Assembly (NCBI RefSeq): GCF_900106035.1
Contig: NZ_FNUC01000004.1
Coordinates: 682,001 to 746,000 of the forward strand
Origin: Jiangella alba
GTDB taxonomy: Bacteria > Actinomycetota > Actinomycetes > Jiangellales > Jiangellaceae
DNA: 64,000 nt
Reading direction: 5' to 3'
Shown here in pieces: positions 1,893 to 5,665 of the stretch; the stretch's first letter is position 1, and the number at the start of each line of letters is the position of its first letter. Position numbers and translations under genes: made by a program. Under the pieces are notes generated by a model, which did not search any database, was not told the origin of the DNA, and saw nothing but the letters and a program-made list of their open reading frames with translations.

Positions 1893-3308
1893 ATGACGTA
1901 CGACCCGAGCGCCCAGGGCCCGTTCCGGCAGCGGGCCCGCCGCGTGGTCCGCCCGCAGGGCCCGCCGACGCAGCCGCTGGCGATCCGCGGCCTGCAGAGC
2001 CGGCTGACGGCGGAGGAGGAGCGGCAGGTCCTGGACCTCATCCTGCGCACCGGCGACGCCATGGTGGCCACGGGTGCGCCGGTGGCGGACGTGACGGCGG
2101 CGCTGCTGCGGCTCGCGGCCGGGTTCGGGGTGACGCGGCTGCAGGTCGACATCACGTTCATCTCGATCATCGCGTCCATCGACCGCGACGACGACCCCAT
2201 CACGAAGGTCCGCGTCATCAACCTGCGCAACTCCGACTACAGCCGGTTGGCGGAGCTGTTCGACCTCGTCGACGAGGTGCATCGCGGCGGCGTCACCCTC
2301 GACGACGCGCAGCGGAAGCTGGACGAGGTCCTGGCGGCGCCGCACCCGTACCGGCGCTGGATCGTGACGCTGGCGCTGGGCCTGATGGCCTCGGGGGTGG
2401 CGCTGCTGCTCAACGGCGGCTGGCTGGTGGCGCTGGTCGCGGCGGTCACCACGATCGTCATCGACCGGACGCTGCGCGCGCTGCGCCGGTGGGGCCTGCC
2501 GTACCTGTTCCAGCAGGTCATCGGCGCCGGGTTGGCGACGGTGGTGGGGCTGGCGGCGTTGTGGGCGACGGACCGGTTCGGCTGGTCGCCGACGCTGCTG
2601 CCGCCGTCGCTGATCGTGGCGTCCGGCATCGTCGTGCTGCTGGCCGGGCTGTCGCTGGTCGGCTCGGCCGAGGACGCCATCGCCGGCTACCCGCTGACGG
2701 CGGCGGCGCGCACGTACGAGGTGGTGCTGCACACCATCGGGCTGGTGGTCGGCATCGGCGTCATGCTCGATCTCGGCCAGCGCGCCGGCATCCCGCTGAC
2801 GATCCTCGAACCGGGCACGCTGAACATCCCGACCACGATCCAGATCCTCAGCGGCGGCCTCATCGCCGGCGCCTGGAGCCTCGCGTCGTACACGCGGGCG
2901 CGCACGATCCCGGTCGTGCTCGGCGTCGGCATGGTGGCGGCCGCGGTGCTGCTGCTGGGCCGTCAGGTGCTGGAGATCGGCCCGGCCGGCTCGTCCTTCC
3001 TGGCGGCGCTGGTGGTGGGCCTGATCGCCGGCGGCCTGAGCGAGCCGCTGAAGACGCCGAACCTGGTCATCTCGGTGTGCGGCATCACGCCGCTGCTGCC
3101 GGGCCTGGCGATCTACAACGCGATGTTCCGCATGGTCGAGGGCGACGACGTCGTCGGCGGGACGGGACAGCTGATCGCCGCGTTCGGCATCGCGCTGGCG
3201 CTGGCCGCCGGCGTCACACTGGGCGAGTTCCTGGCCACGCCGCTGCGCTCGGAGATGGACCGCTGGCAGCGCCGGGTCGCCCGCCGCGCCCGCGGCACCC
3301 GCAGCTAG
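1893..3308 (+). CDS. thrE: ThrE-family threonine/serine exporter
   Basis: 471 residues, close to the usual length of actinobacterial ThrE. The first ~150 residues form the soluble ThrE N-terminal domain (LRTGDAMVATGAPVADV at its start). About ten hydrophobic segments follow from near residue 155 to 455, ending in a basic tail. The family exports threonine and serine using the proton motive force at the cytoplasmic membrane. ATG 1893 lies 6 bases after TACCGT, so the mRNA is probably leaderless. The gene sits between sirB and the siroheme/nitrate operon without an obvious functional link. Its TAG stop abuts the inverted-repeat element at 3308. Confidence 0.88.
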   Translation: MTYDPSAQGPFRQRARRVVRPQGPPTQPLAIRGLQSRLTAEEERQVLDLILRTGDAMVATGAPVADVTAALLRLAAGFGVTRLQVDITFISIIASIDRDDDPITKVRVINLRNSDYSRLAELFDLVDEVHRGGVTLDDAQRKLDEVLAAPHPYRRWIVTLALGLMASGVALLLNGGWLVALVAAVTTIVIDRTLRALRRWGLPYLFQQVIGAGLATVVGLAALWATDRFGWSPTLLPPSLIVASGIVVLLAGLSLVGSAEDAIAGYPLTAAARTYEVVLHTIGLVVGIGVMLDLGQRAGIPLTILEPGTLNIPTTIQILSGGLIAGAWSLASYTRARTIPVVLGVGMVAAAVLLLGRQVLEIGPAGSSFLAALVVGLIAGGLSEPLKTPNLVISVCGITPLLPGLAIYNAMFRMVEGDDVVGGTGQLIAAFGIALALAAGVTLGEFLATPLRSEMDRWQRRVARRARGTRS

Positions 3309-3469
3309 GGGGTGTCTCCCGGGTCTCGGCCGTAGCGAGCGGCGTCCAGGTGGATGCCTCGCAAGGTGCGAGGAAGGAGTCATAGCGGGGTTCTATGACG
3401 ACTGACGAGAACGCCGCGAGGCGCCGCCTGGACGTCGCGCAGTAGGCCACGGACCCGGGAGACACCCCC
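3308..3469. repeat. 162-bp element with 16-bp perfect terminal inverted repeats (MITE-like)
   Basis: The 16 bases at 3308-3323 (GGGGGTGTCTCCCGGG) are the exact reverse complement of 3454-3469. Complementarity continues imperfectly inward for roughly 60 bp on each side, with a matched GTCCAGG/CCTGGAC core. The centre holds two small hairpins, CCTCGCAAGGTGCGAGG and CATAGCGGGGTTCTATG (about 3382-3398). There is no open frame for a transposase and no clear target duplication. It fills the whole gap between the convergent thrE and cobA stops, so it could also act as a bidirectional terminator. Confidence 0.75.
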
Positions 3470-3477
3470 TCGGACGC

Positions 3478-4197
3478 TCACGCCAGCAGGTCGCGCAGCG
3501 CGACCACGTCGCCGATCACGACGACGGCGGGCGGCTCGATCCCCTCGGCCGCGCAGCCGACGGTGTCGAGCGTCGCGACGACGACCCGCACCCCGCTGGA
3601 CATCACCACGGCGACCGGCGTGCCCGGCCGCCGCCCGCCGGCGACGAGCCGGGCGGCGATACCGGACAGGTGCGTCACGCCCATCAGCACGACGATCGTG
3701 CCGGCGCCGGCCGCCAGCCGGTCCCAGTCGACGGTCGACTCCGGCGCGTCCGGGTGGGCGTGCCCGCTGACGATCGTCACCTCCTGCGTCACGCCGCGCT
3801 GCGTCACCGGGATGCCGGCCAGCGCGGGCACGGCGACGGCGCTCGTCACGCCGGGCACCACCTCGTACGGCACGCCGGCCGAGGCGCAGGCGAGCGTCTC
3901 CTCGCCGCCGCGGCCGAAGACGAAGGGGTCGCCGCCCTTGAGCCGGACGACGCGCAGCCCGCGGCGGGCGCGGTCGATCATCAGCGTCTCGATCTCGCGC
4001 TGGCCGCGCCGGTGCTTGTGCGGCTCCTTGCCGACGTCGACGATCTCGACGTCGGGGCACAGCGCGTCCAGCAGCGACCGCGGCGCCAGCCGGTCCACCA
4101 GCACGACGTCGGCCTGTTTGAGCAGGTCGAACCCGCGCAGCGTGAGCAGCCCCGGGTCGCCCGGACCGCCGCCGACGATCGCCACGTGGCCCGTCAT
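3478..4197 (-). CDS. cobA: Uroporphyrinogen-III C-methyltransferase (SUMT)
   Basis: 239 residues, the length of a stand-alone SUMT. The N-terminus has the family motif VGGGPGDPGLLTLRG, followed by GGDPFVFGRGGEE and YEVVPGVTSA, all typical of tetrapyrrole SAM methyltransferases. It methylates uroporphyrinogen III at C2 and C7 to give precorrin-2, the branch point to siroheme and B12. There is no fused precorrin-2 dehydrogenase/ferrochelatase domain of the CysG type. ATG 4197 overlaps the stop of the upstream regulator (ATGA), making it the last gene of the nitrate/nitrite operon; it presumably supplies siroheme to NirB. Confidence 0.93.
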   Translation of the reverse strand: MTGHVAIVGGGPGDPGLLTLRGFDLLKQADVVLVDRLAPRSLLDALCPDVEIVDVGKEPHKHRRGQREIETLMIDRARRGLRVVRLKGGDPFVFGRGGEETLACASAGVPYEVVPGVTSAVAVPALAGIPVTQRGVTQEVTIVSGHAHPDAPESTVDWDRLAAGAGTIVVLMGVTHLSGIAARLVAGGRRPGTPVAVVMSSGVRVVVATLDTVGCAAEGIEPPAVVVIGDVVALRDLLA

Positions 4198-5327: not shown

Positions 5328-5665
5328 GGCACCGCCACCTCGACGTCGCCGTCGCGCACCCGCACGTCGTACACCGGCACCGTGACGCCCGCCGAGTCCA
5401 GGCATTCCCCGGTGACCAGCGAGAACACCTGCTTGTGCAAGGGCGACGCGACGGTCGGCTCGGCGCCGCGCGACCCCACGATGCCGCGCGACAACACGTA
5501 GGCACCGCTGAACGGGTCGCGGTTGCCCACCGCGTGGACCTCGCCGGAGACACCGCGGAAGATCGCCACCTGCACGCCGCCGACCAGCGCCGCCACTCCG
5601 CGCTCGGGCAGCAGCCGGTCGAGGCGGCAGACGACGGTCCACAGCCGGACGTCGAGAACGGTCAT
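5324..5665 (-). CDS. nirD: Nitrite reductase (NADH) small subunit
   Basis: 113 residues with the Rieske-like fold of NirD: AVGNRDPFSGAYVLSRGIVG and ASPLHKQVFSLVTGECLD in the usual places. The CxH and CxxH iron-sulfur ligands of true Rieske proteins are absent (NRDPF and SPLHKQ occupy those positions), which is normal for NirD. It partners the large subunit NirB in assimilatory reduction of nitrite to ammonium in the cytoplasm. The start at 5665 overlaps the nirB stop by 4 bp and the stop overlaps the nnaR start, so translation is coupled on both sides. Confidence 0.92.
   Translation of the reverse strand: MTVLDVRLWTVVCRLDRLLPERGVAALVGGVQVAIFRGVSGEVHAVGNRDPFSGAYVLSRGIVGSRGAEPTVASPLHKQVFSLVTGECLDSAGVTVPVYDVRVRDGDVEVAVP

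Follow-up and report, generated by a model that had tools for sequence, protein, structure and literature searches.

Bacterial MITEs derived from IS5-family elements are short and non-coding, carry inverted ends of the IS5 type, use a CTAG-type target, and occur in many copies. For IS5 of Escherichia coli itself, the published account gives YTAR, mostly CTAG, as the target (PMC5493358). ERIC and similar repeats are long intergenic stem-loops with terminal inverted repeats (PMC2267715), and QMITE2 of Coxiella burnetii, according to a review, is a MITE that has a core and whose predicted transcript folds (PMC10969869). The 162-bp element that we analyzed in Jiangella alba, within a stretch of 64 kb (the window), shares with the IS5-derived MITEs all the features just listed, but differs from them in having as its interior a conserved fold that is common to elements with other ends and unmatched in the IS elements examined. 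It resembles the E. coli IS5 in target preference (PMC5493358) and in the superfamily of its presumed transposase, although it has no transposase gene and is likened to IS5 by its target, not by its ends. The likeness to ERIC lies in the long intergenic stem-loop with repeated ends; set beside ERIC by description, however, these elements are actinobacterial and surround a single core with ends of more than one kind (PMC2267715). QMITE2, also compared by description, is alike in its core and folding, but has direct repeats of 7–9 bp (PMC10969869).

The preliminary description had read the element as a non-autonomous inverted-repeat element, which membership among the MITEs is now well supported because the copies are dispersed, their flanks are of the CTAG type, orthologous sites are element-free, and the ends are of the IS5 type. 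The fuller reading—a non-autonomous MITE moved by an IS5-family transposase into CTAG stop codons and carrying a conserved core under selection—we hold to be quite probable.

The element occupies positions 3308–3469 of the window on the plus strand, exactly where it had been placed, as delimited by alignment of 16 full-length genomic copies at 91–100% identity. It lies between two convergent genes: thrE on the plus strand (1893–3308; PF06738, with a match of 222 bits, and PF12821), encoding a threonine/serine exporter, and a gene for a CobA-type tetrapyrrole methylase on the minus strand (3478–4194, the start codon being approximate; PF00590, 160 bits). The TAG stop codon of thrE (3306–3308) shares its last base with the first base of the element, whose other end stops 8 bp short of the minus-strand gene end at 3478, so that the junction position given earlier holds as well. 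The ends had been described as perfect over 16 bp; perfect they are, but the length must be corrected to 18 bp (GGGGGTGTCTCCCGGGTC), or to 19 bp if A3307 and T3470 are included, in which form the left terminal inverted repeat (AGGGGGTGTCTCCCGGGTC; 3307–3325, plus strand) has its perfect complement in the right one (3452–3470, minus strand). On the left, the target flank CTAG (3305–3308, plus strand) comprises the flanking TA and the G3308 of the element that together form the TAG of thrE; on the right, the unstranded flank at 3470–3471 is TC here and TA in fresh copies. The complementarity claimed for the whole element and the nesting of hairpins were both borne out: the element strand folds at −119.6 kcal/mol, versus −70.7 (sd 3.9) for shuffled sequences (z −12.6; none of 200 shuffles equalled it), the arms of an inverted repeat of 47 nt show 79% complementarity, and within that larger repeat an inner hairpin, GTCATAG-CGGGGTT-CTATGAC (3379–3399, plus strand), pairs 3379–3385 with 3393–3399, which stem varies among elements. 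At 162 bp, with terminal repeats perfect over 18–19 bp, the element has no coding capacity; the core as a coding sequence was rejected, the short frame of other cores being disrupted here by an extra base and, as read from the core alignment, ending early in Jiangella-type elements.

Far from being single-copy and conserved solely as a terminator at this locus, the element is multi-copy and dispersed. The J. alba genome (7.68 Mb in four contigs) contains, besides fragments, the 16 full-length copies, and matches to the element were found in at least 21 of 60 genomes, J. alba included. Among the 11 Jiangella congeners, at least eight had some match and at least six had near-full-length copies; G001, G002, and G005 had none among the matches listed. 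When the exact pattern of one conserved stretch was sought in a collection of named genomes, all 27 stretches recovered were from Jiangella (J. muralis, J. anatolica, J. ureilytica, and J. endophytica).

The flanks were counted in 78 distinct full-length copies from nine genomes, two entries (L191 and L236) that represent a single site being counted once (79 reduced to 78) and 32 other loci, at which the form was partial, deleted, or unmatched, being excluded. In J. ureilytica all 10 full-length copies are flanked by CTA and TAG, reading CTA-GGGTGTG...CACACCC-TAG, and seven of the 10 are identical, so that the spread there looks recent. Over the 78 copies, CTA/TAG flanks occur in 32 and TA on both sides in only 40, which target-site duplication is compatible equally with TA and with CTAG, the two being indistinguishable. 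Older copies lose the CTAG, the second flank base being C in 21 of 78. Very-short-patch mismatch repair would turn CTAGG into CCAGG, and that change of the flanking CTAGG is what we observed in many older copies. We also noted internally deleted forms of about 40–95 bp that retain both ends (L184, L186, L188–L191), several of them with CTA/TAG flanks, and, in J. muralis, longer forms with related ends and another interior (L225–L230, L261, L262; L226 having 268 bp), which interior carries GATCAGGTGAC...GTCACCTGATC palindromes, present twice in most members.

The empty-site check proposed in the preliminary description gave a positive result: among the matches listed, the thrE–cobA junction lacks the element in eight of the 11 congeners, namely those with both flanks aligned, in which 7–47 bp separate the aligned thrE and cobA flanks; in G009, G001, and G011 a single flank was aligned among those matches. 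Since the thrE stop codon of the congeners is TGA wherever readable, we infer the CTAG precursor at this junction; the site of G009 (AGCTGACCGGACGC) is not a clean precursor of the insertion. For the other J. alba sites we compared four congeners, and 13 of 14 sites could be read together with both flanks in one or more of them, the fourteenth (L015) having an IS982 element on one side. Element-free orthologous sites with CTAG were found for three of the 13 (L003 and L016 in two congeners each, L011 in one), and the element-free orthologue of L004 has GTAG in two congeners; at the remaining nine, neither CTAG nor GTAG is present at the insertion point. The L009 site retains a right-end remnant in three congeners and a deleted form in one, the L007 site a sister element in one congener and short remnants in two, and the L006 site in J. 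muralis the 268-bp form with a different interior (L226), so that some apparently empty sites may be scars. For the nine sites, a CTAG precursor would accordingly have to be presumed, or the sites would be deletion scars, the occurrence of which is shown by L009.

That the element should fit where insertion is harmless, as had been remarked, is accounted for by insertion into CTAG stop codons. We analyzed 70 of the 78 copies in this respect, leaving out five from G031 and G054 and three with less than 400 bp of flank, and called genes from open frames and GC content at codon positions, not from annotation. In 41 of the 70 Jiangella copies a coding-like frame reaches the edge of the element and its stop codon, of which two bases belong to the flank, is completed by the first base of the element, on both sides in 10 copies; the position on the last base of the thrE stop is thus one instance of a common arrangement. 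If any junction codon is counted, a coding frame occurs in that phase in 52 of the 70, versus 11 and 5 in the other two phases, which control phases establish the pattern. The tetranucleotide itself is scarce in the window, with 12 occurrences against about 36 expected from trinucleotides, and four of the 12, including the one at thrE, are TAG stops of coding-like frames. Where both neighbours could be called (63 copies), they were convergent in 30, tandem in 24, and divergent in 9.

Comparison of the ends with those of IS families found their match in the IS5 family, near-identical ends with CTAG flanks being present in plasmid elements of Pseudonocardia and Rhodococcus. Among the matches listed, we examined ten actinobacterial plasmid relatives: nine have CTAG-flanked inverted ends, seven start with CTAGGG, and three extend to TGTCTCC like the MITE, those of Pseudonocardia pLS2-1 (CTAGGGTGTGTCTCCCAAT / CTAGGGCGTGTCTCCCAGA), P. 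alni (CTAGGGCGTGTCTCC at both sides), and Rhodococcus jostii pRHL2 (CTAGGGCGTGTCTCCCAATG / CTAGGGCATGTCTCCCAATA); the MITE end in J. ureilytica is CTAGGGTGTGTCTCCCAAG. The autonomous elements that share the ends were found in plasmids of other genera and not in the element's own genome, and end scans of G000, G004, G008, G010, and G011, with single-end hits examined in part (leaving aside, for example, G010:3424013 and several in G004), found no autonomous partner with the MITE ends. The sole partner located was that of a sister MITE: a scan of six genomes with CTAGGGNGTGTCT recovered in G010 a 1,017-bp element in five identical copies (L328–L332), with ends GGGAGTGTCTGACGGATC and two overlapping frames that encode an IS5-family transposase (NF033580, 159 bits), which arrangement suggests programmed frameshifting. 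The sister MITE ends differ from those of this element at the fourth base alone, and at one copy end (L333) the agreement is exact. From ends and target together, mobilization of the MITE by an IS5-family transposase is indicated.

Other transposase types were considered as partners and rejected. DUF4096 (PF13340) had no match in the J. alba genome; DDE_3 (PF13358; IS630) had none there and matches in five of 12 further genomes, though without these ends nearby; DDE_5 (PF13546; IS701) had none in any of nine genomes, the J. alba search being negative; and DDE_Tnp_1 (PF01609) gave in J. alba only the IS982 type, with other ends. At two single ends GGGTGTGTCTCCC in J. alba (L063, L066), no transposase was recognized among the adjacent listed frames. 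Two kinds of IS982-family element occur in J. alba (L108–L117; four and six copies, with open frames of 317 and 309 aa), and CTAG flanks every copy.

Outside Jiangella, many relatives match the interior of the element and not its ends, and prove to be elements mostly of 159–174 bp in which differing inverted repeats surround one common interior. In other actinobacteria more than 10 end variants surround this core, for example CTAGTGTCGYGTGAGGGAAGCGCTT (L039), TAGTGTCCCGTGAAGCCGGT (L040), GAGGCTCCGGCAATAGG (L041), TAAGAGGCCGCGCGGAATGGG (L042), and GGGAGTGTCTGACAAAT (L037), and several core-bearing elements lie in Streptomyces plasmids (L380–L386); the automatic end search was unsettled for L283 and L382 (we read L382 by eye), and L036 is masked at its right end. 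An alignment of 29 diverse cores has 19 invariant columns, some of them in the GCAAGG/AACG loop and some at G·A positions; conservation is complete or at least 90% at the loop bases and at several of the G·A positions. The RNAalifold consensus has an outer stem, a second stem, and the inner hairpin, between which single G-C pairs are spaced by two-by-two mismatches, which mismatches are tandem G·A (GGAGGAGGAG opposite CGACGACGAC). In the J. alba element, the individual fold and the consensus place the 5′ side of this ladder at 3369–3378 (CGAGGAAGGA) and the 3′ side at 3400–3409 (GACTGACGAG), both on the plus strand. When the cores were folded singly, at least two G·A steps appeared in 22 of the 29; the seven without the ladder were L036, L041, L270, L273, L343, L383, and L386, among which L270, L343, and L383 have ordinary pairs in its place.

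The 28 pairs of the core are paired in 92.0% of cells, versus 78.2% after shuffling, with two-sided changes at 22 pairs; the covariation score was 0.424, against 0.195 (sd 0.013) for shuffles, none of 500 being as high; and pairing fell to 29–49% when the partner columns were shifted by one to three. Because related sequences inflate covariation tests, we give more weight to a leave-out covariance model (R1), built from 21 of the 29 cores, all from other genera, with every Jiangella element and L036 excluded. In 116,937 bases from 15 sources, R1 identified positions 3331–3453 of the window (plus strand) at 87.6 bits (E 1.3e-15), and also recovered the nine other full-size elements present in those sources, plus a weak match at 5613–5662 of the window (E 0.66); neither the 268-bp forms nor the elements of the IS5 family gave a match. 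The core is thus real as a sequence and as a fold. An Rfam search of the element and six core-bearing loci returned solely miRNA matches far under the cut-off; apart from the core, a cobalamin riboswitch (RF00174, 34.5 bits) was observed at L035:359–428 in a related genome. Phage records contained no relative, the 22 stretches of viral contigs that matched 16 core bases all lacked the rest of the core, and a limited search of the published literature found no description of the element or its core.

The function of the core is a matter of prediction, and the evolution of the palindrome bears upon it. Template-switch repair keeps the arms of a palindrome complementary, so that covariation in a stem is not by itself proof of selection. 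In orthologous copies we found two-sided changes that had occurred in place, two in the pair L002/L195 and one in L208/L222 (included despite agreement over only some 24 bp of its right flank), where about 0.06 would be expected per pair; L196/L242 and L205/L215 had one-sided changes only—two-sided changes being thus in two of four pairs—and L201/L220, with one common flank, was uncounted. Such changes suggest template-switch repair, from which, rather than from selection, part of the arm covariation may derive. Taken to its limit, this reasoning would make the entire conservation of the core a by-product of template-switch repair and gene conversion, the common interior reflecting horizontal spread only, and the different interiors at the shared site of L006 and the 268-bp L226 of J. 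muralis would fit such a view. We nevertheless regard it as unlikely, if deserving of serious attention, since repair should erase the G·A mismatches and the asymmetry of the GCAAGG/AACG loop, whereas in the 29 diverse cores the loop bases and several of the G·A positions are strongly conserved, and the fold is retained around many different ends.

A bidirectional terminator or mRNA-stabilizing hairpin used by the host, and kept at gene ends for the sake of the neighbouring genes, would agree with the very stable hairpin and with the 30 of 63 copies that lie between convergent genes. The stop-codon target, however, itself yields a position at gene ends; moreover, within 3000–3900 we found no intrinsic terminator with a GC stem and a following U-tract, the junction is element-free in the eight congeners with both flanks aligned among the matches listed, and the strand of the core is unbiased with respect to the genes, 12 copies being (toward, away) and 12 (away, toward), which absence of preference speaks less for a part in host mRNA than for one in the cycle of the element itself. 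We accordingly judge a host-used hairpin to be improbable. Still less credence attaches to mobilization by the resident IS982-family elements: their 10 copies in J. alba are all flanked by CTAG, and one is inserted directly in the CTAG of the MITE copy L015, but their ends after CTAG, ATGAGTGAGTCC and ATGACCTATTCC, are unlike those of the MITE, whereas the IS5-family ends are alike.

In the IS5-based reading that we prefer, a DDE transposase of that family, itself presumed, would be supplied in trans and cut the ends of the element, which would then insert at CTAG with duplication of either TA or CTAG. As CTAG is scarce and is found in part where a TAG stop is preceded by C, many copies would land in stop codons; and because the element begins with G, that base and the flanking TA would rebuild the TAG and leave the host gene intact, in which manner the end of thrE would have been formed. 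The core at 3331–3453, whose strand-specific fold is common to elements with other ends, would change partners by exchange of ends, and would be kept by selection for the life cycle of the element itself, as RNA or as single-stranded DNA. In its widest form—to which we assign even chances—this proposal envisages a single actinobacterial parasite of about 160 bp, an undescribed structured element whose portable G·A-ladder core of about 100 nt repeatedly exchanges its terminal repeats, rides different transposases of the IS5 family and perhaps of others, and has, in the form of RNA or of single-stranded DNA, a function of its own under selection.

The interiors of MITEs are usually treated as filler. 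If the core stays while the ends change, the interior would be the inherited part and the ends the replaceable one, and what MITE cores are for would become a question open to experiment. The stop-codon rule, for its part, offers a simple means of harmless insertion in a gene-dense genome, and predicts the sites at which new copies should be found.
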